Part shown: positions 10,750 to 61,433 of the stretch, in pieces
How the letters are laid out: every line of letters begins with the position of its first letter
Numbering within the stretch: the stretch's first letter is position 1
From: Longimicrobium sp.
GTDB lineage: Bacteria > Gemmatimonadota > Gemmatimonadetes > Longimicrobiales > Longimicrobiaceae
Assembly (NCBI RefSeq): GCF_035474595.1
Contig: NZ_DATIND010000155.1
Span: 124,001 to 188,000 of the forward strand
Direction: 5' to 3'
Length of the DNA stretch: 64,000 nt
Position numbers and translations under genes: made by a program
The notes under the pieces: model-generated
The model's database searches: none
Told to the model about the DNA's origin: nothing
What the model saw: the letters and a program-made list of their open reading frames with translations, nothing else

Positions 10750-13641
10750 CTATGGCCGATAGCCGATCGTGGCGTAGAGGCGGAGCTTGTGGCGGTCGGG
10801 GGCGTCGAGCGGGTAGCCGGCGCCCGCCATCAGCCGCACGGAGGGGATGCGGAGCACGTTCAGCGGCGGCGTGTCGAACGCGGCCTCGGCGCCGGCGACG
10901 CGGTACCAGCCGTCCCACCATCCCCCGCCCGCGCCCACGCCGGCCAGGTACGGCGTCAGCAGGCCGAGATCGGTGCTCACCCGGAACATCCGCATCTCCC
11001 TTCCCTGAACGATGCCGAAGCGCGCGGCGGGGAGCGGGATGCGCTGTGACAGGATGGCCTCGTCGAAGAGCTGCCCGCGCGCGCCGCCGGCCACGAACCG
11101 CTCCCACGCCGGCGCATCGCCCGACACGCGCCCGTAGGTCAGCTGCCCGCGCGCGTTCAGCCCGAAGAGCCCCACCCCTGCCGCGACGGAGCCCAGCCCG
11201 CGCGCCCACGACTCGCCGCCCGTGCGCCCCACCGTGCCGTTCATCGCGGCGGAGAGGGAGAGCGCCTGCGCGCCGCGCGACTGCGTGAGCCCGCCCTGCG
11301 CCTCCGCGAAGGCCAGCGTTCGCGCGGACGTCCCCCCGCCGCGCAGGTCCAGCGCCCCCGCGGATACGCCGCCGCGCAGCCGCCGCCGCAGCGCCGACCC
11401 GCCCCACGGCTGCTCGGCGAACAGCGTCGCCCCGGCGTAGTCCGCGTCCAGCGAATCCGCGGCGGAGACGAGCGACCTGCGGAGCTGCGACGGGCGATGC
11501 CGCATCCCGAACAGGTCCAGCCCGACGGACGGAATCCAGCGGCGGTAGACGAGATTGAGCGCCGCGCCCCGCGGCATCCCCGCGTCCCCGCCGGCGGCGC
11601 GGAGGAGGGCGCTCAGGCGGCCGACGGGATCGGCGTTCAGCAGCACCAGCCCCGCCGATCCGCCGTCCGCATCCACCACCGCAGTGGGAAACAGCCGGTT
11701 GCGCCGCGGCCCCAGCCCGTATGCGTGCGATGGCGGCAGCGGTCCGCGCCCGAGCGTGTCAGGCTCGCTGACGGCGACGCGCGGCGCGGCGGGGACCAGC
11801 GTGGTGTCCAGCGCGACCAGCGGCCCCGCCGCGGCGCCCGCCAGCGGGATGCGCATCAGGTCCATCCCCCGCGCGTGCAGGGCGAGGTAGAAGACGCGGC
11901 CGCTGTCCTGCGGCTCCGGCGCCGCCGCCGCGCCGGTGACGCGGGTGAGCGTGCGCGTCTCCCCCGTCGCCAGGTCCAGCGTCTCCACGTTGGCGATCCC
12001 GCCACGCTCGGAGACCTCGACCAGCGCGCGGCCGCCGGGGAGGAAGGCGGCGTCGTAGCGGCTGGCGCCGTCGTCGGGGCCGATGCGGCGCTCGGCGCCG
12101 GTCGCGGCGTCCACCATCACCATCGCCCAGCGCCGCCCCTCCTGCACGGCCACGGCGATGCCGCGCCCGTCCGGCGACCAGCGCGGGCGGTAGTAGACGC
12201 GGTTCGGCCGCGCGGCCACCAGGGTGCGGACCGCGCCGGTGGCCAGGTCCACCGTCACCACGCCGCAGATGCCGCCCGTGCACTGGACGGCGGCGGCCGT
12301 GCGCCCATCCGGCGCCGGGTCCGGCCAGCGCAGCGACGCGCCGCGGGTGACGCGGCGCAGCGTCTTCCTTCGCCAGTCCCACACGAACAGGTCCGGGCGG
12401 ACGGCGCCGTCGCCAAGCGGCTCGTTGCGGGTGAGCAGGATGCCGCTGCCGTCGGGGAGGAAGCGCGGCGCGTCGTGCGGGCGGCCGTTCACGGGAAAGA
12501 GCGTGGCCAGCGCGCGCTTCCCCGGGTGGCGGCCCGGGATGTCCGGCACGTCCTCGGGGTCGTGCGCCAGGAGCGCGCTGTCCGCCCGCGCCTGCGCCGC
12601 CGAGTCTACGCGCGCGTCCGCGGTGCTCCAGACGACCACGCGCGACGCGGCCGGCGTGGCGCCGCGGAGGACGATGGCCATGAACCGCCCGTCGCGCGAA
12701 ACGGCGGGGTCGCCCGTTCCCCAGTTCAGCCGCTGCACGGTGTCGCCGACGGCGAGGCCGGCGGTGCGAAGCGCGTTGCGGGCCTGCAGCGCGCGCTCGG
12801 TCACGTCCACGGTGAAGCGGCCGTACATCTCCGCCGGGGTGCCGCCGTACACGCCCGCGAACGCCGCGTCGAAGGTCCGGTCGCGCCGCGCGCTCATCCG
12901 CCGCCACAGGTTGGGCAGGCTGGGCTCGCCGCGCTGCTGGACGAGCCACTCCAGGAACGCCGACCCGGCCAGGTACGCCATCGACCCGCCGTAGTACCCC
13001 TGCGCGGCGCTCAGCTGCTCGTAGCGCGGCAGCTTTCCCTCCAGCGCCCACTGCCGCAGCACGGCCGCGCGGACCACGCTGTACGGCCGCCCGCTCCCGG
13101 TCAGCTTTCCCTCCACGTACGTTGCGTATCCCTCGCTCAGCCAGCGCGGCGCCTTCACGGCCAGGGGCCCCAGCTTCACCGGCGCCAGGCGGACGAACAG
13201 GCGCTGGCGCGGGTTGCGCGGCGGGCGGGCGAGGTGGGCGATGTGGGCGAACTCGTGCACCGCCAGCTGCTCGGCCGGGTCGCGGGTGCTGCCGAGGGCC
13301 GAGCGCGGGTCCGCCGGTGTGGGCCACAGGGCGATGGCCGGCTCGTCCAGGAAGGGGAAGGCGAAGCCGTTGGCCGCGGCGGAGGGGTCCTCGACGACGA
13401 TGGTGACGCGCGCGGCGGGCGCGTAGCCCACCATCGCGGCGACCTCGGCGTGGATGGCCTCGAGGCGCGGCACCAGGTCCAGCGTCCACGCCTCCATCTC
13501 CACCGGGTAGTGCACGGTGAAGTGTTCCGTGCGCACCGTCCGCCAGTCCAGGTGCGGCCGCGTGACGATCTGCGCGCGCGCGGCCGGCGCGCCGCATGCC
13601 AGGGCGAGCGCCAGGATTCCGGCGATGATCCGCTTGTGCAT
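10750..13641 (-). CDS. Exported HExxH metalloprotease-like protein with propeller and C-terminal beta-barrel
   Basis: A 963-residue protein. The start at 13641 gives a clean signal peptide (GILALALACGAPAARAQ); longer in-frame starts read into an intergenic repeat. Residues about 25-240 look like a peptidase-MA zinc metalloprotease, with the HExxH motif as HEFAH at 129-133. Residues about 320-650 contain PD40/TolB-type blades (SRDGRFMAIV, DPAPDGRTAAAV, RWSPDGRGIAV). The last 250 or so residues are Gly-rich alternating strands ending LRLYATIGYRP, like an outer-membrane barrel. The combination suggests a surface-anchored protease, which is inference. It is separated by repeats from neighbours on both sides. 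Confidence 0.82.
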   Translation of the reverse strand: MHKRIIAGILALALACGAPAARAQIVTRPHLDWRTVRTEHFTVHYPVEMEAWTLDLVPRLEAIHAEVAAMVGYAPAARVTIVVEDPSAAANGFAFPFLDEPAIALWPTPADPRSALGSTRDPAEQLAVHEFAHIAHLARPPRNPRQRLFVRLAPVKLGPLAVKAPRWLSEGYATYVEGKLTGSGRPYSVVRAAVLRQWALEGKLPRYEQLSAAQGYYGGSMAYLAGSAFLEWLVQQRGEPSLPNLWRRMSARRDRTFDAAFAGVYGGTPAEMYGRFTVDVTERALQARNALRTAGLAVGDTVQRLNWGTGDPAVSRDGRFMAIVLRGATPAASRVVVWSTADARVDSAAQARADSALLAHDPEDVPDIPGRHPGKRALATLFPVNGRPHDAPRFLPDGSGILLTRNEPLGDGAVRPDLFVWDWRRKTLRRVTRGASLRWPDPAPDGRTAAAVQCTGGICGVVTVDLATGAVRTLVAARPNRVYYRPRWSPDGRGIAVAVQEGRRWAMVMVDAATGAERRIGPDDGASRYDAAFLPGGRALVEVSERGGIANVETLDLATGETRTLTRVTGAAAAPEPQDSGRVFYLALHARGMDLMRIPLAGAAAGPLVALDTTLVPAAPRVAVSEPDTLGRGPLPPSHAYGLGPRRNRLFPTAVVDADGGSAGLVLLNADPVGRLSALLRAAGGDAGMPRGAALNLVYRRWIPSVGLDLFGMRHRPSQLRRSLVSAADSLDADYAGATLFAEQPWGGSALRRRLRGGVSAGALDLRGGGTSARTLAFAEAQGGLTQSRGAQALSLSAAMNGTVGRTGGESWARGLGSVAAGVGLFGLNARGQLTYGRVSGDAPAWERFVAGGARGQLFDEAILSQRIPLPAARFGIVQGREMRMFRVSTDLGLLTPYLAGVGAGGGWWDGWYRVAGAEAAFDTPPLNVLRIPSVRLMAGAGYPLDAPDRHKLRLYATIGYRP

Positions 13642-13809
13642 CAGGGCCACGGCTGTGCGGGAACGGACGGCTGCGAGCCGGGGATGATGCCGACGGTTTT
13701 GCGGCGCCGCAATGCGGAAGGGCGGGTGAAGACGGAAAGGCTGCTGCGCAGGCTGCGAGTCGCTGCCATCCTGCATCGGCGCGGCACTGGCATCAAATCG
13801 TACACAAAA

Positions 13810-14089: not shown

Positions 14090-15508
14090 TCAGGGAGGCG
14101 GGAGCGCGACGAGGATCGCCGTCACGAGGACGACGAGGAGGCCGGCGGCGAGCTCCGCCCCGGCCGTGCGCCGCAGCCGCGAGGGCGATTCGGAGGCTTG
14201 CAGCGTGGGGAGGACGAAGCGCCAGTTGTAGAAGCCGATCGCGCCGACGATGGCCAGCAGCGCCAGCTTGGCCAGCAGCATCACCCCGTACCCGGTGCGC
14301 CACAGGTCCGGGATGGCGGTGATGTGGAAGAGCGAGTTGACCACCCCCGTCGCGCCCGCCAGCCCCGCCCCCGCGAGCGCCACCGGCGAGAACACCGCCA
14401 CGATGCGCGCGAAGTCCGCCGTCGCCTTCCCCTCGCCGGCAAAGGCGGCGGCGGGGAGGCCGGCCAGCATTACCGCCGCCAAGGTTCCCAGCCAGACGCC
14501 GGCGCCCAGCACGTGCAGCCAGTCCGACGCGATCGCCAGCGCGGTCAGCCGCTCCTCCGCAGCCGCGTGGCCGCTGAGCGCGGGGACGGCGGCCAGGAGG
14601 AGCGCGGCCACCGCGGAGCCCATCCACCCCACCGATCGCCCGTGCGGCGCCCGCGCCACCATCAATCCCAGGAAGAACGCCACCGTCGCCAGCGCCTGCA
14701 GGATCCACCCGCTCCCCCACACGGTGCCGGTGAGCAGCGCGTTCAGCATCTCCCCGTCGAAGGCGTCGGCGGCGCCGTTCAGGGCCACGCTCTGCAGCCA
14801 GAGCCGCGCGAGCAGCGTCAGCAGCGAGAGCGCGGCGGCGGCGGCGGCCAGGTACCACACGCCGTACTCCGCGCGGTCCGCCACCTTCTCCATCTCCCCG
14901 CCCCGCAGCCGGCGGATGACGAGGAGATGGAAGGACACGGAGCCGATCATCCCCAGCAGCGCCAGGAACTCCATCCACCGCACCGCCACCGGGAGCGGCG
15001 CCGCGGCATCCGAATCCCCCTCGTCCTCCATCGCCCCCGCGTCCGCCGAGGGCTGCCCGTCACCCGGCGCGACGTCGCCCCGCGGCGCGAACCCGGATGC
15101 CGCGGCGATGGCCGGCGCGGGCTCCGCCGCCTCGACCGTGAACGCCAGGGTGCCGCGGACCACGTGCCCGTCCGCCGACGCCGCGCGCCAGCTCGCCACG
15201 TAGCCGCCGGGCGAGAGGCGGCCGGGGAGGGCGAAATCGAGCGCGTTCGCGTCCGCCGGATCGCCGCGCATCGCCCCGCGCGCGACGACCGAATCGCCCA
15301 GCCGCAGCTCCAGCACGGACATCGCCGGGGCGACGGCCTCGCTGAACCGGAGATGGAGAGTGCGCAGCGTGTCGCCCACCGCGGCGTGGTCCGCGGGGCG
15401 GGACGACTGGAGCCGCGTGTGCGCCGCCGCGGGGGCGGGGCGCACCAGCGTGGCGGACAGGAGCGCGGCCGCGGCGGCCGCGCGGAAGGGGGCGAGCGAG
15501 CGGGGCAT
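14090..15508 (-). CDS. CopC-CopD fusion, copper resistance/uptake protein
   Basis: A 472-residue fusion. After a signal peptide the predicted mature N-terminus is His30 (cleavage after PAAA), the position of the Cu(II)-binding N-terminal His in CopC. The CopC domain spans about 30-125 and ends with the family motif SADGHVVRGTLAF. A Pro/Ala/Asp linker follows, then about eight membrane helices of CopD type from about residue 165, the last near the C-terminus. The pair binds copper in the periplasm and is thought to move it across the inner membrane. The ATG overlaps the stop of the preceding His/Met-rich outer-membrane gene (ATGA), so the two are translationally coupled. Confidence 0.9.
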   Translation of the reverse strand: MPRSLAPFRAAAAAALLSATLVRPAPAAAHTRLQSSRPADHAAVGDTLRTLHLRFSEAVAPAMSVLELRLGDSVVARGAMRGDPADANALDFALPGRLSPGGYVASWRAASADGHVVRGTLAFTVEAAEPAPAIAAASGFAPRGDVAPGDGQPSADAGAMEDEGDSDAAAPLPVAVRWMEFLALLGMIGSVSFHLLVIRRLRGGEMEKVADRAEYGVWYLAAAAAALSLLTLLARLWLQSVALNGAADAFDGEMLNALLTGTVWGSGWILQALATVAFFLGLMVARAPHGRSVGWMGSAVAALLLAAVPALSGHAAAEERLTALAIASDWLHVLGAGVWLGTLAAVMLAGLPAAAFAGEGKATADFARIVAVFSPVALAGAGLAGATGVVNSLFHITAIPDLWRTGYGVMLLAKLALLAIVGAIGFYNWRFVLPTLQASESPSRLRRTAGAELAAGLLVVLVTAILVALPPP

Positions 15509-17043
15509 CAGTGCGAGTCGGTCATCCCGGCCATGGAATCCATCCCGCCGAGCGGGTGGTGCATCAGGGTCATGTCGTCCAGCGCGCCGTAGCTCCCCAT
15601 CCGCATGGGCCCGCCGCCGAAGAAGAGGCGGAAGCCGGCGGACACGGCCCAGAAGTCCCCCGGCTCCAGCAGCACCGAGGGGACGGCGCCGCGCTGGCGG
15701 GCCACGTGGTTCCGCTGCACCTCCACGAACGGGCGCGTGGCCACGCCGCCGCCGGACAGGTCGTACTCGTAGCCCAGCGAGCTGATCAGCCAGCGGCTGG
15801 CGCCCACCGGCTCGGTGTCGTGGTCGTAGCGGAAGAACGCGTCCGACCCCACGGCGCCCAGCCGCGCGTACTCCGGCCGCGTGGCCAGCTCCACGCGGTA
15901 GTACGGGCGGTGCCGCGCGATGCGCACCTGCGTCTCGCCCAGCACGGAGAAGAAGCCGCCGCCGTGCGCCGGGTCGCTCACCGACGCCTCGGCCATGGCG
16001 TAGATCCCGCCGAACGAGTGCGACCCGGAGTGGCGGATGCTGGCGTTGTACAGTGCGGTGCGCTCCGTCGTCCCCTCGTGGCTCTCGCCCACGCTGCCGA
16101 ACGACGCGGAGAGCTCCCACGGCGCGGTGGTCCCCGTCCCCCCGAAGCGGCGGGTCACGCGGCCGGAGAACGAGTTGCCGAAGGAGGTGATGTTCCCCAC
16201 GTCCCACGGCCCGTCGGGCTCCTGCCCGCCGAACACGCCCGCCTCCACGCTCCACGGGCCGGAGAGCCACTGGCCGTTCAGTGTCCAGCGCTCCAGGATC
16301 TGCGAAAGGTGGTGGTTGGTGGGATACTTCGCCACCGGGCGCGACATGGGGTCGTCGGTCCCGTACGGCGCGAACCCCTTCCCGGCGGAGAGGGAGAAGG
16401 CGCCGCCCGCGACGTTCCACAGATTGAGGCTCACCATCGCCTCGTGCAGGAAGGTGTGCGGGTGGCGCCGGTCGATGAATCCCTCGCCCCACCCGCCGTA
16501 GGTGATCTCGCCCCGCGGCTGGGTGAGCGCCTCCAGGTTCAGCGTGGTCCGCAGGGCGAGCGTGGCGCCCGGGCTCAGCACGTTCACCATCACCGCGGGC
16601 TGGGTGAGGTACGATTCCGTCTCGTGCAGCGGGCTGTCCGCGTCGCCCGGCGCGGCTCCCGTCGTCATGGCGAACGCCTGCGCCATCCCCAGGAGCTGCC
16701 AGCCGCCGCCCAGCTGCCGCATCAGCATCTCGTGCTTCATCCCCGCGTGGCGGCGGCCGCTCATGGCGTCGTGCAGCCCCGCGTGCTGCATCGGCGTGGG
16801 GAGCGTGTCGCGGGGCATCTGCATCCCCGGCATCGCGCCCATGTCGTGCCCCGCGTGGGCGTTCCCCGCCGCGTGCGTCGTGTCCGCGGGCGCGGGGGGA
16901 TGCATCGCCGCGTGCGCGGTGTCCGCCGGCGGGTGCGCGTGGGCGGCGTGCGACGTGTCCGGCCGCACCTGCGCGGAACTGCGCGCGGGTGCGGCGGCGG
17001 CGGCCCCGAACAGCAGGGCCGCGGCCAGCTTCTCGATCCTCAT
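15508..17043 (-). CDS. His/Met-rich outer-membrane beta-barrel protein, copper associated
   Basis: A 511-residue exported protein. After the signal, residues about 30-110 are very rich in His and Met (HAAHAHPP, HAGHDMGAMPGMQM, HAGMKHEMLM), typical of copper-binding segments. The remainder is alternating aromatic/Gly strands (LALRTTLNLEAL, GNSFSGRVTRRF, YYRVELATRPEY), like an outer-membrane barrel. The start at 17043 gives MRIEKLAAALLFG with a normal signal; an upstream in-frame ATG at 17070 has no better ribosome site. It lies between the small His/Met protein and CopC-CopD, all on the minus strand, so a role in copper binding or passage through the outer membrane is likely. Confidence 0.83.
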   Translation of the reverse strand: MRIEKLAAALLFGAAAAAPARSSAQVRPDTSHAAHAHPPADTAHAAMHPPAPADTTHAAGNAHAGHDMGAMPGMQMPRDTLPTPMQHAGLHDAMSGRRHAGMKHEMLMRQLGGGWQLLGMAQAFAMTTGAAPGDADSPLHETESYLTQPAVMVNVLSPGATLALRTTLNLEALTQPRGEITYGGWGEGFIDRRHPHTFLHEAMVSLNLWNVAGGAFSLSAGKGFAPYGTDDPMSRPVAKYPTNHHLSQILERWTLNGQWLSGPWSVEAGVFGGQEPDGPWDVGNITSFGNSFSGRVTRRFGGTGTTAPWELSASFGSVGESHEGTTERTALYNASIRHSGSHSFGGIYAMAEASVSDPAHGGGFFSVLGETQVRIARHRPYYRVELATRPEYARLGAVGSDAFFRYDHDTEPVGASRWLISSLGYEYDLSGGGVATRPFVEVQRNHVARQRGAVPSVLLEPGDFWAVSAGFRLFFGGGPMRMGSYGALDDMTLMHHPLGGMDSMAGMTDSH

Positions 17044-17100
17044 CTCCACTCTCGTTGGTGCGAAATCCACGGTTTCCGCGCCCGGGTCACGGGCGCACGA

Positions 17101-17466
17101 TCAGGCCGGGATCGCGCCTCGCGGAGGAGGGGAGAGCGTTGCGATGCAGGGAGATGCGTAGAGATCGGACGCCTGGGCGGGCGCCGCGGCCGGGTCGATC
17201 GGGACGGGCGCGTCCACCGTGGTGCCGGACGAGACGGCCGCGAGGCCGCACTGCATCACCACGCCGCAGTCGGCGCGGTGCGCGGGCTCGTCGGAATGAT
17301 GGGACGCGGGGCGATGCGCGGGGCCGTGCATCGCGTCGTGCGCGGCGCCGTGATGCATCGCGCGCTCCGCGCCGTCCGCGGCCGGGGGGGCCATGGGGCA
17401 CTGCGCGGCCGCCGCCCGGGTGAGGGCGAAGGCGAGCAGGAACAGGAGCTGGACGATGCGGCGCAT
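17101..17466 (-). CDS. Small exported His/Met-rich protein
   Basis: A 121-residue protein with an N-terminal signal (LLFLLAFALTRAAAA). The centre is rich in His and Met (AMHHGAAHDAMHGPAHR, SHHSDEPAHRADCGVVMQC) with three cysteines, consistent with a periplasmic copper buffer or sensor; no named family was recognised. It is first in the minus-strand copper cluster, 57 bases before the outer-membrane protein. A -10-like TAGCTT ends 6 bases upstream of its ATG, so the message may be leaderless. Confidence 0.7.
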   Translation of the reverse strand: MRRIVQLLFLLAFALTRAAAAQCPMAPPAADGAERAMHHGAAHDAMHGPAHRPASHHSDEPAHRADCGVVMQCGLAAVSSGTTVDAPVPIDPAAAPAQASDLYASPCIATLSPPPRGAIPA

Positions 17467-17472
17467 GGCCCG

Positions 17473-17502
17473 AAGCTAACCCCCCGCGCGCGCCCGCGGC
17501 AA
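17473..17502 (-). promoter_or_regulatory. Predicted promoter of the copper cluster
   Basis: On the minus strand TTGCCG (17502-17497), an 18-base spacer and TAGCTT (17478-17473) precede the ATG at 17466 by only 6 bases. The -10 matches those of three other promoters in the window. The start of transcription would fall at or next to the ATG. Confidence 0.5.
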
Positions 17503-17595
17503 CCTGTGGGGAGATGCCCCCTCGCGCGCCGCCCGGCCGGGCCGCATCTTCCCCGCGCTCGTGACGCAAGTGCTTCGGGAAGAAAGAGATTGGGG

Positions 17596-18048
17596 ATGAC
17601 GGACAGAGATTCGGGCGGGCGCCTCTCCACCACCGACAGGGTCTACGGCGCCGTCGCGGCGATCGCGATCGTGCTGGCCGTGTTCTTTCTGTTCCGCGGC
17701 GGCGGCGCGGATGCGACCAGGGTCGACCGCGCGCCGCGCATCACCATCGAGGACCCGCGCCCCGGCGCCGACGTGGACCAGCCGATGGTGGTCACCTTCA
17801 ACGCGCGCACCACGCTGCGCCCCGACGGCTCCGACCCCGCTGCCGGCCGCCACGTGCACGCCCGCATCGGCGCCACCGAGCTGATGCCGGGGACCGCGGA
17901 CGTGCAGCCGGCCGGCGGCACGCGCTACCGCTGGACCCTGCCGCGCCTCCCCGCCGGCGCCGCGAACGTCCGCCTCTACTGGTCCGACGCCTCCCACCAG
18001 CCCATCCCCGGCGCCGCCAGCGACTCCGTGCCCGTGACGATCCGGTGA
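17596..18048 (+). CDS. Membrane-anchored Ig-like domain protein near the copper genes
   Basis: A 150-residue protein. It has a hydrophilic start, one membrane helix (about 17-36, AVAAIAIVLAVFFLFRG), then a short beta-rich periplasmic domain (RITIEDPRPGADVDQPMVV ... VRLYWSDASHQPI). The fold resembles the short immunoglobulin-like domains of FixH/YtkA-type or DUF4399 proteins, but no family is certain. It diverges from the copper operon across 129 bases, so shared regulation is possible. The ATG at 17596 follows a GGGGA ribosome site closely. Confidence 0.6.
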   Translation: MTDRDSGGRLSTTDRVYGAVAAIAIVLAVFFLFRGGGADATRVDRAPRITIEDPRPGADVDQPMVVTFNARTTLRPDGSDPAAGRHVHARIGATELMPGTADVQPAGGTRYRWTLPRLPAGAANVRLYWSDASHQPIPGAASDSVPVTIR

Positions 18049-59256: not shown

Positions 59257-59862
59257 ATGAGCCTGCCTGCGCTGCAGTACCCGAACGGCATCTCGTACGA
59301 GGACTTCCTCGCAACGGTGGACGAGGGGACGCATGCGGAATGGGTGGACGGGCAGGTGGTGCCGGTGACTCCGCCGTCGAAGGAGCATCTGACGATCACG
59401 GCATTCCTTCTCGCCGCGCTCCGGGGGTACGCGAACCGGAAGCGGCTGGGCGGGATCGTGCTGCACGCCCCCGCGCAGATGAAGCTGGCGCGCAGCGGGC
59501 GCGAGCCCGACGTGATCTACCTGAGCCCGGCGACGATGGCGCGGTGGGGCGAGCGCTACGTGGAAGGGCCCGCCGACCTGGTGATCGAGGTGGTGAGCCC
59601 GGAGAGCCGCACGCGCGACCGCCGGGAGAAGTTCCGCGAGTACGAGGCCGCGGGGGTGCGGGAGTACTGGCTGATCGACCCGGCGCAGAGGACGGCGGAC
59701 GTGTACGCGCTCTCGCCGGGCGGCGTGTACGAGCGAGTGGATCCGGGCGATCCTCCCCGCCTGAACAGCGTGGTGCTGCCCGGGCTGTGGATCGATCCCG
59801 CGTGGTTGTGGTCGGAGGCGCCCGACGAGTGGGCGGCCTTTGAGGAGTGGGGGCTGATCTGA
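59257..59862 (+). CDS. Uma2-family (DUF820) protein, copy A
   Basis: A 201-residue protein with a PD-(D/E)xK nuclease-like fold. The full family pattern is present: [23 protein letters not shown] at the N-terminus, EPDVIYLSPATM, ADLVIEVVSPES and REKFREYEAAGVREYWLIDP. The cellular function of Uma2 proteins is unknown; nuclease activity is inferred from fold. It sits between dppC and dppD, which is not usual for this transporter. The ATG at 59257 is preceded by GGAAGCGG. Its 5' leader is almost identical to that of copy C. Confidence 0.85.
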   Translation: MSLPALQYPNGISYEDFLATVDEGTHAEWVDGQVVPVTPPSKEHLTITAFLLAALRGYANRKRLGGIVLHAPAQMKLARSGREPDVIYLSPATMARWGERYVEGPADLVIEVVSPESRTRDRREKFREYEAAGVREYWLIDPAQRTADVYALSPGGVYERVDPGDPPRLNSVVLPGLWIDPAWLWSEAPDEWAAFEEWGLI

Positions 59863-60386
59863 CGCAGGCCGGAGACGCGGAGGGCGCGGTTGCGGCGCTA
59901 GAGGAGGAGCGAGCGCGCATCACCGCCTTCCTCGCGGCGGCGCTGCGCGGCTGGATCAACCACCAGAAGCTGGGAGGGGTGCTGCTCCACGCGCCGGAAC
60001 CGATGCAGCGGGAAGGCGGCCGCCGCGAGCCCGACGTGGTCTACCTGGGCCCCGCGACCGTGCAGCACTGGGGCGTGCGGTTCGAGCACGGGCCGGCCGA
60101 CCTGGTGGTGGAGGTGGTGGGCCCCGGGAGCCAGGCCGGAGACAGGCAGGAGAAGCTCCGCGAGTACGCGCTGGAAGAGGTGGCCGAGTGCTGGTGGGTG
60201 GACCCGGCGCGGCGCACGGCGGAGGTCCACACTCTGGCGGCCAGCGGCGCGTACGAGCCCGTGCCCGCGGGCGACCCGCCTCGCATGCGCAGCGTGGTTC
60301 TTCCCGGCATCTGGATCGATCCCGCGTGGCTGTGGGCGGAGCTGCCGGACGAAGCGAAGGCATTCGAGGCGTGGGGGCTGGCTTGA
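59847..60386 (+). CDS. Uma2-family protein, copy B, N-terminally truncated
   Basis: A 179-residue reading that overlaps the end of copy A by 16 bases. It keeps the C-terminal two-thirds (TAFLAAALRGWINHQKLGG, EPDVVYLGPATVQHWG, ADLVVEVVGPGSQAGDRQEKLREY, WIDPAWLWAELPDE), but the first 50 or so residues of the family, including HAEWVDGQ, are missing, replaced by a segment that matches the start of dppD (GADLTQ). The VSPES motif has become VGPGS. It is probably a degenerating paralogue that may or may not be translated. Confidence 0.6.
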   Translation: MGADLTQAGDAEGAVAALEEERARITAFLAAALRGWINHQKLGGVLLHAPEPMQREGGRREPDVVYLGPATVQHWGVRFEHGPADLVVEVVGPGSQAGDRQEKLREYALEEVAECWWVDPARRTAEVHTLAASGAYEPVPAGDPPRMRSVVLPGIWIDPAWLWAELPDEAKAFEAWGLA

Positions 60387-60439
60387 TGCCGTATCCGGGG
60401 GGTGCACCGTGGACGTCCGCGCCGCGGCTTCCGGATCCG

Positions 60440-60504
60440 CGTGGCGCGGCTCTGGCGACAGGGCTCCGATGAATGGGGCGCGTTCAAAGCGTGGGGGCTG
60501 ATTT
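60440..60504 (+). pseudogene. Uma2 C-terminal remnant
   Basis: A fragment encoding a Uma2-like end (SDEWGAFKAWGLI, then stop) lies after copy B, preceded by degraded sequence from about 60387. It shows a further, mostly deleted, Uma2 copy. Confidence 0.65.
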
Positions 60505-60654
60505 GACGCAGATCGGCGAAGCGCGGGTGGCGCGGCGCCCGGGCGGGGGCGGGGCCGATCCTGAAGGTGGAGAACCTGCGGCCCTGGTTCACGACCGACG
60601 CCGGGCTGGCGCGCGCGGTGGACGGGGTGAGCTTCCACGCGAACCCCGGCGAGA
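60491..60654 (+). pseudogene. Partial duplicate of the dppD 5' end
   Basis: This closely matches the start of dppD (61418 onward): GTGGGGGCTGATTTGACGCA, then GGGGCCGATCCTG, GGTGGAGAACCTGCGG and GGACGGGGTGAGCTTCCA. It keeps the frame for about 55 codons and then runs into a stop. It directly abuts the dppC remnant, so it is half of a duplication junction. Confidence 0.85.
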
Positions 60655-60670
60655 TGGCAGAGTGGTAACG

Positions 60671-60735
60671 CTGGTCGCCTTTACCTGCTGGGCGACGGTC
60701 TCCGCGATGCCCTGGACCCGCGGCTCAGGACGTGA
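60671..60735 (+). pseudogene. Partial duplicate of the dppC 3' end
   Basis: This matches 59103-59168 (TGGTCGCCTT, CCTGCTGGGCGACGG, GCCCTGGACCCGCGGCT) with a one-base deletion and a few changes, including the dppC stop codon. Upstream of copy C, the identity continues as a 76-base exact match (60728-60803 with 59161-59236). Confidence 0.85.
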
Positions 60736-60824
60736 CGGCGAACGAGGTGGGTGGATTGGAAGCAGCCGCGGCGCTCGATGCCGAGGCCATGGACACGATC
60801 GATCTGCACGAACGGGAGGCGGCC

Positions 60825-61433
60825 ATGAGCCTGCCTGCGATGGAGCATCCGGGAAGCATCTCATTCGAGGATTTCCTCGCCACGCTCGACGAGGATACGC
60901 ATGCGGAATGGGTGGATGGGCAGGTGGTGCCGATGAGCCCCGTCTCCGAGCGGCACGACGCGGTCTCGGGGTTCATCTACGCGGTCCTCCGCGGCTTTCT
61001 GCGCCGCAGGAAGATCGGCGGCCGCGTGTTCCACGGCGAGTTCCAGATGAAGCTCGGGCCCGGAATGTCCAGCCGCGTGCCCGACGTGGCGTACGTGGCA
61101 CCGGAGCACATCTCCCGGATCCAGGGGACGTTTCTGAATGGACCCGCCGATCTCGCCGTCGAGGTCGTGAGCCCCGAGAGCCGCGCGCGTGATCGCATCG
61201 AGAAGCTGCGGGAGTACGAGCGGGCGGGTGTTCGCGACTACTGGCTGCTCGACCCGGTGCTGCGCACGGCCGAAGCGTACCGCCTGTCGGCCGGGGCGTA
61301 CGAGCCGGTGGAGCCCGGATCGCCGGCGCGGCTTACGTGCGAGGCAATTCCCGGGTTCTGGATCGAGGTCGCCTGGCTCTGGCTTGCCGAGCCCGATGAA
61401 TGGATGGCGTATGAAGCGTGGGGGCTGATTTGA
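60825..61433 (+). CDS. Uma2-family (DUF820) protein, copy C
   Basis: A 202-residue complete Uma2 protein: [52 protein letters not shown] and [20 protein letters not shown]. Its leader is nearly identical to copy A, but the proteins have diverged by about a third, so the duplication is not recent or the copies are under different selection. Its stop codon lies inside the start region of dppD. ATG 60825 has GGGAGG upstream. Confidence 0.85.

Follow-up and report, generated by a model that had tools for sequence, protein, structure and literature searches.

A probable copper-controlled operon headed by a CutF-like leader ahead of an unnamed outer-membrane barrel and a CopC-CopD fusion in Longimicrobium

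The window analyzed in this work, 64,000 nucleotides of DNA from Longimicrobium sp. (positions 124001-188000 of G000:C155, in a draft genome of 6.57 Mb), contains on its minus strand three genes that probably constitute a copper-controlled operon, in which a short exported open reading frame (ORF) with the anatomy of the copper sensor CutF would control an outer-membrane barrel of no named family and a CopC-CopD fusion. The order of the genes and the overlap between two of them, the conserved motifs and their spacing, the mRNA pairing at the level of the family and the homologues in other copper loci can be read directly from the sequences; copper binding, ribosome stalling and the direction of the response (on with copper) we infer from the analogy with CutF.

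In the order of transcription, the minus strand encodes an exported protein of 121 residues, a barrel of 511 residues and a CopC-CopD protein of 472 residues, while a protein of 150 residues is encoded divergently on the plus strand. An earlier interpretation of this DNA, made from the letters alone (hereafter the sequence-only reading), had placed these four genes here, and all of them were found; it had also described three His/Met-rich layers of the envelope, translated as a unit. The combined shares of His and Met in the small protein (10.7%) and in the barrel (10.2%) are indeed the two highest among the 50 genes called in the window (median 3.9%), while those of the CopC-CopD fusion (4.4%) and of the divergent protein (4.0%) are ordinary, so that there are two His/Met-rich products rather than three. 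Translation as a unit may apply to the barrel and CopC-CopD, where the stop codon of the former overlaps the start codon of the latter by one shared base (TGATG at 15506-15510), and is not confirmed for the small ORF, which is separated from the barrel ATG (17041-17043) on the same strand by 57 bases. Genes were called with our own codon-usage script trained on the genes of the window, and the low-G+C loci that it missed were re-called by longest ORF.

The leader and its predicted pairing with the barrel ribosome-binding site

The small ORF, which we will call the leader, begins with a hydrophobic export signal (according to a hydropathy test), carries a Cys pair and has Pro-Pro-Pro-Arg near its C-terminus; it contains 8 His, 5 Met and 4 Cys residues. 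With respect to the filters that define CutF-like proteins (PMC9973294), it is shorter than 150 residues, possesses an N-terminal signal peptide by the same hydropathy test, has PP in the last 15 residues (its end reads SPPPRGAIPA) and is followed by a same-strand gene, the barrel, well within 1,000 nucleotides. In place of the CxxxC copper motif of CutF it has C67-x5-C73, and therefore we use the label "CutF-like" rather than CutF.

17101..17466, minus strand: CutF-like leader ORF, 121 residues; signal at about residues 1-21, C67-x5-C73, PPPR at 113-116 (from an alignment of 16 sequences)
17248..17268, minus strand: Cys-pair codons (C67-x5-C73; candidate site of copper binding)
17119..17130, minus strand: PPPR codons, putative ribosome-slowing motif, five residues ahead of the stop codon
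17020..17160, minus strand: mRNA segment with predicted pairing between the end of the leader ORF and the barrel ribosome-binding site (from family-level tests)
about 17078-17096, minus strand: G+C-rich hairpin enclosed by the preceding segment
17044..17053, minus strand: barrel Shine-Dalgarno zone (putative), GAGAGTGGAG, directly ahead of the ATG at 17041-17043 (from the sequence)

A small exported ORF is found directly upstream of the barrel in 27 of the 32 loci of subfamily A, to which the barrel of the window belongs (see below). Three of the five misses (L069, L071 and L077) begin at a contig end; in the genome of L071 (G224) a leader-like match is located at the end of a different contig, next to a homologue of the divergent gene, which suggests that leader and barrel are separated there by a contig break. 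The same filter flagged 5 of 13 loci of the distant type C and 1 of 32 loci of subfamily B (L109), whose ORF was judged spurious because it lacks a PP[RK] end. As two Cys residues and a PP among the last 15 residues are required by the filter itself, only the Arg/Lys, the CX5C arrangement and the spacing are independent of the selection. PP[RK] is present within the last 15 residues of all 27 leaders, compared to 6 of 705 other called genes, and C-x5-C in 26 of the 27. The second Cys is separated from the final Arg/Lys by 42-44 residues in all 26 measurable leaders (43 in the window, from C73 to R116), and this distance stays constant while the length of the leader ranges from 106 to 181 residues. 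In an alignment of 16 leader ORFs, C23, C67, C73 and PPPR are invariant, and the His-rich stretch varies both in length and in sequence. The five leaders of type C have CxxC 38-40 residues ahead of the last PP. Two known families match the leader below their cut-offs: DUF2946 (PF11162; 13.8 bits, cut-off 23.7), which is matched at E up to 1 by 3 of 8 homologues, and CopL (NF033807; 13.1 bits, cut-off 40), which is matched by 5 of the 8 with a best E of 0.00045.

The one-step alignment of the region between leader and barrel was poor, and pairing was therefore assessed locus by locus, with permutations and with control gene pairs. These RNA tests cover 24 loci with barrel starts assigned by hand (three of the 27, without a clear start, were left out), grouped by eye into 13 lineages; in most loci the gap between leader and barrel is 53-71 nucleotides. 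The region around the stop codon of the leader is predicted to pair with the ribosome-binding zone of the barrel, and over the 13 lineages the duplexes between a leader end and its own ribosome-binding site are better than all 20,000 permuted pairings, while 60 control pairs sampled from 83 exhibit no advantage of own partners (3,010 of 5,000 permutations were as low). The pairing of the ribosome-binding zone with the leader end amounts to 0.56 (n=24), compared to 0.18 in the 83 control pairs (p=1.9e-9, and p=1.5e-6 for this short zone with one locus per lineage); with a longer leader zone the corresponding values are 0.52 and 0.21 (p=4.8e-6, and p=9e-4 with one locus per lineage). A known structured-RNA family was rejected, as the comparison of the window with Rfam returned no matches.

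The leader is not confined to the barrel loci. With an E threshold of 0.01, its profile has matches in 81 of the 395 genomes of Gemmatimonadota, and from this listing we picked by hand 20 additional places, mostly high-scoring and none among the subfamily-A loci. Thirteen of them (among L192-L205) head OEP/HlyD_D23/ACR_tran operons, i.e. efflux systems of the CusCBA type from the resistance-nodulation-division (RND) group, as judged by Pfam for the genes of two loci and by tblastn for the remaining ones. These operons, which belong to sister Gemmatimonadota, encode a tripartite pump, in contrast to the barrel and CopC-CopD of the window. That they are headed by a leader of this kind speaks in favour of a copper switch ahead of efflux or defence functions. 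CX5C is located 43-45 residues from the final Arg/Lys in 19 of the 20 additional leaders. One of them (L198) precedes a fragmentary subfamily-A barrel; behind another (L208) is a barrel similar by eye to type C, and in the leader operon of L211 the third gene encodes a CopC-CopD fusion.

The barrel, its relatives and its neighbours

In the AlphaFold2 model of the barrel (19 sequences), 16 strands are formed between residues 115 and 475, and residues 1-103 are disordered, with a predicted local distance difference test score (pLDDT) of about 31. The N-terminus, which the sequence-only reading had described as plug-like, is therefore in this model a His/Met tail and not a plug.

15508..17043, minus strand: 16-strand outer-membrane barrel, unnamed, 511 residues, subfamily A
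16735..16968, minus strand: N-terminal barrel tail, rich in His/Met (residues 26-103, with 11 His and 8 Met); disordered according to the model
16441..16512, minus strand: conserved barrel loop GEITYGGWGEGFIDRRHPHTFLHE, residues 178-201 (invariant positions common to subfamilies A and B)
16288..16374, minus strand: conserved barrel loop around FAPYGTDDPMSRP..KYPTNHHLSQILER, residues 224-252

TonB-dependent receptors combine a plug with a barrel of 22 strands; this identity was rejected, as the barrel matches neither Plug nor TonB_dep_Rec and its model contains no plug. Membership in the CopB/PcoB group was rejected as well, and the earlier view that the barrel is not a standard CopB is thereby supported: no Pfam or NCBIfam family matches it at E up to 1, and its model has 16 strands versus 12 in PcoB (PMC9210255). 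The fold search returned porins of the general and phosphate types, with an identity of about 10% (OprP and OprO with Z about 25, OmpF with Z about 23), with PcoB absent among the fold matches listed, and phmmer against the PDB sequences yielded a chance match only. The likeness to PcoB/CopB resides in the N-terminal tail, which is poorly conserved, disordered and His/Met-rich in both; in Caulobacter this disordered domain of PcoB is critical for function (PMC12509749). The barrel is single-copy in its genome, and a search with it against plasmids found none.

Homologues of the barrel were found in 24 loci, mostly with 48-63% identity (L025 matched only the His/Met tail), and the family profile has matches in 127 of 395 Gemmatimonadota genomes. 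Subfamily A reaches scores of at least 480 bits in 29 genomes, which without exception belong to the order of the window. Subfamily B, with about 200-310 bits for full-length matches, typically lacks the His/Met-rich tail; a choice-of-anchor-B/LVIVD lipoprotein is frequently encoded behind it, and several of its loci are preceded by succinate dehydrogenase-like (sdh) genes. The more remote relatives grouped as type C have an N-terminal tail rich in His and Met; among 299 genomes from the phylum to which the Caulobacter genome of L025 belongs, 10 contain them, and tails of this kind are present in most members of both A and C. Some of the neighbours of type C are copper genes. On a Pontibacter plasmid these encode a four-helix copper-binding protein and a P-type ATPase for copper; on a Sphingobium plasmid the barrel adjoins a DUF305 gene, and a gene for a P-type ATPase is no more than about 3 kb away. 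Two further relatives (L004 and L075) adjoin cupredoxin/ATPase/CsoR-like genes, with CsoR confirmed; CsoR is encoded within 6 kb of the barrel in 2 of 30 subfamily-A and in 0 of 29 subfamily-B genomes. The assignment of the window genes to a copper locus thus agrees both with the presence of CopC-CopD and with relatives near genes for CopA-type ATPases, CsoR and DUF305 proteins.

At L084-L115 (subfamily B) the barrel and the choice-of-anchor-B/LVIVD lipoprotein form an apparent uncharacterized two-gene unit, and at L070 (6404-6829) and L073 (8467-8853) a gene of the PCYCGC/CYCXC (seleno)protein family directly follows the barrel (family search on L070).

An alternative, which we consider unlikely, is that the barrel functions as a general porin, takes no part in copper handling and has a His/Met tail that is incidental. 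The best fold matches are general and phosphate porins, and subfamily B retains the conserved loops next to LVIVD lipoproteins and sdh genes; on the other hand, this explanation is at odds with the tails of most A and C members and with the relatives located inside copper gene clusters.

14090..15508, minus strand: CopC-CopD fusion, 472 residues; its start overlaps the barrel stop codon
17596..18048, plus strand: single-helix beta-sandwich (immunoglobulin-like, Ig-like) protein, divergent; a frequent neighbour, probably outside the copper unit

That the third gene encodes a CopC-CopD fusion, as previously claimed, is borne out by Pfam, where both domains score above the cut-offs (59.5 bits against 23.3 for CopC and 67.2 against 32.1 for CopD); the protein differs from the known ones in being fused and in its NCBIfam scores, which do not reach the equivalog cut-offs (for CopD 113 with a cut-off of 195, for CopC 69 with a cut-off of 95). 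It directly follows the barrel in five of the seven subfamily-A genomes from the family of the window (G000, G379, G032, G224 and G696). The sequence-only reading had named a lack of conserved linkage as a ground for its own refutation; such linkage is present for the small ORF and the barrel, and for the barrel and CopC-CopD it is limited to this one family. Within 3 kb of a subfamily-B barrel CopD is found in 0 of 29 genomes (in G040 it is about 5 kb away).

The divergent protein had been described as anchored and Ig-like, in agreement with its one N-terminal helix and beta-sandwich, and as a member of the chain from the outer membrane to the cytoplasm, which does not stand: its homologues occur in 17 of 21 genomes of the family and the barrel in only 7 of 21, and we rejected it as a core part of the system. 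The fold search of its model found only generic matches of the Ig or fibronectin type III kind. In G286, G701 and G180 the Ig-like gene is directly divergent from CopC-CopD in the absence of leader and barrel; therefore, leader and barrel behave as a cassette that is either present or absent between them. A TonB-dependent receptor gene follows CopC-CopD in G701 (L159 5258-7291) and in G180 (L160 3352-5421), the Pfam assignment covering the L159 gene alone. It is possible that this receptor serves as a replacement outer-membrane partner where leader and barrel are absent.

Elsewhere in the window, the segment downstream of CopC-CopD (10750-13650) encodes a large exported protein with weak matches to Peptidase MA and to beta-propellers (PD40/TolB-like), and the neighbouring genes at 59257-61433 have near-repeated N-termini (SLPALQYPNGISYEDFLATVDEGTHAEW and similar).

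Comparison with known copper switches and the proposed mechanism

CutF of Rhodobacter capsulatus, the first product of the cutFOG operon, has 118 residues, with C69xxxC73 and the end P109EPEGPPPRL118, so that C73 and R117 are 44 residues apart (PMC8456105), compared to 43 in the leader of the window. When it binds copper, CutF delays its own completion; the stem-loop that covers the ribosome-binding site of the following gene is thereby opened, and CutO is turned on (PMC9973294). The two leaders resemble each other in size, export signal, Cys pair and terminal PPPR, as well as in the short gap and, at the level of the family, in the predicted pairing over the ribosome-binding site of the next gene. 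They differ in that the next gene encodes a multicopper oxidase in cutFOG and a barrel here.

By analogy, we propose the following scenario. The Cys pair of the leader would reach the translocon as the ribosome reads the Pro-Pro-Pro-Arg near its end, and copper bound by this pair while the leader is still nascent would hold the ribosome at PPPR, as suggested by CutF. The held ribosome would open the mRNA hairpin over the barrel ribosome-binding site, the barrel would then be translated, and CopC-CopD would follow via the overlapping stop and start codons. The barrel with its disordered tail could be an outer-membrane copper channel or a docking platform, the tail collecting periplasmic copper for the channel as may be expected from PcoB, and CopC-CopD would handle periplasmic copper, as its domains imply.

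It is quite unlikely that the switch operates in the opposite direction, like CruR of Bordetella pertussis, with copper relieving the stalling and shutting off downstream genes in a locus that serves copper acquisition. CopD-type proteins have been linked to import, and a TonB-dependent receptor follows CopC-CopD beside the Ig-like gene in the two genomes mentioned above. CruR, a DUF2946 protein, is likewise an exported leader of copper genes with a Cys pair at a fixed distance, about 45 residues, from a terminal Pro motif (PMC9426467), and the leader of the window matches DUF2946 below the threshold. The genes downstream of CruR encode a TonB-dependent copper importer and are off with copper. 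However, CruR has RAPP instead of PPPR, CXXC instead of CX5C, and a long gap of 162 nucleotides with Rho-dependent termination (PMC9426467), while a gap of 53-71 nucleotides and an occluded ribosome-binding site fit CutF. We favour a switch that is turned on by copper because of this short gap, the PPPR tail and the CusCBA-type efflux operons under the same leader. That the small protein is a stable exported carrier handing copper between the barrel and CopC-CopD, as its export signal and its His, Met and Cys residues would allow, is very improbable in view of the variable His-rich stretch next to three invariant Cys and PPPR, the fixed spacing in proteins of very different length, the unrelated RND operons behind the same leader, and the fates of CutF, not detected in cells (PMC9973294), and of CruR, thought to be short-lived (PMC9426467). 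The sequence-only reading had regarded the small protein as a third metal-binding layer of the envelope; the CutF-like anatomy and the conserved motif spacing suggest that it is more likely a copper sensor.

Several observations weigh against the CutF-like interpretation and must be noted here. The Pro motif of CutF alone caused no stalling in fusions (PMC9973294), and the CX5C pair departs from the CxxxC of CutF. In the window alone, the hairpin is unexceptional (folding z -0.86) and the pairing is 0.34 for the short zone and 0.54 for the long zone, the latter value being reached by 17 of 83 controls; therefore, we regard the hairpin as a claim about the family. In L075 and L076, both of subfamily A, the upstream DNA is intact and the leader is truly absent. 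Only five of the 30 subfamily-A genomes, namely those listed above, encode CopD at a distance of 3 kb or less from the barrel. Finally, H194, H196, H200, H244 and H245 of the barrel are invariant in both A and B, of which the latter is hardly linked to copper; these residues are thus no evidence of copper by themselves, and we rejected them as a proof of copper binding.

A broader proposal, which we put forward tentatively and with some doubt, has two parts that would have to be true together. One kind of CX5C leader, with a near-fixed ruler of 42-45 residues to PPPR, would be an interchangeable copper switch for varied cargo in Gemmatimonadota (CusCBA pumps, or the barrel, either alone or together with CopC-CopD). 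The barrel, which also has homologues in Pseudomonadota and Bacteroidota, would in turn represent a new class of outer-membrane copper channels, which is neither CusC nor CopB/PcoB nor TonB-dependent. No description of the leader-barrel pairing was found in a search of the literature on CutF-like, DUF2946 or CruR proteins with copper, or on Gemmatimonad with copper, supplements not being covered. Neither of the two founding papers, one of them on CutF-like proteins (PMC9973294), refers to Gemmatimonadota in its main text.

If our interpretation of the locus is right, copper sensing by a nascent chain would be extended to a phylum absent from the main text of the founding papers, and the fixed-spacing leaders would offer a natural set of variants with which to study the mechanism that retains the ribosome. 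An orphan family of outer-membrane barrels would likewise become a testable candidate for a copper channel. Moreover, the case of the leader would illustrate that a protein annotated as a metal-binding layer can turn out to be a regulator.

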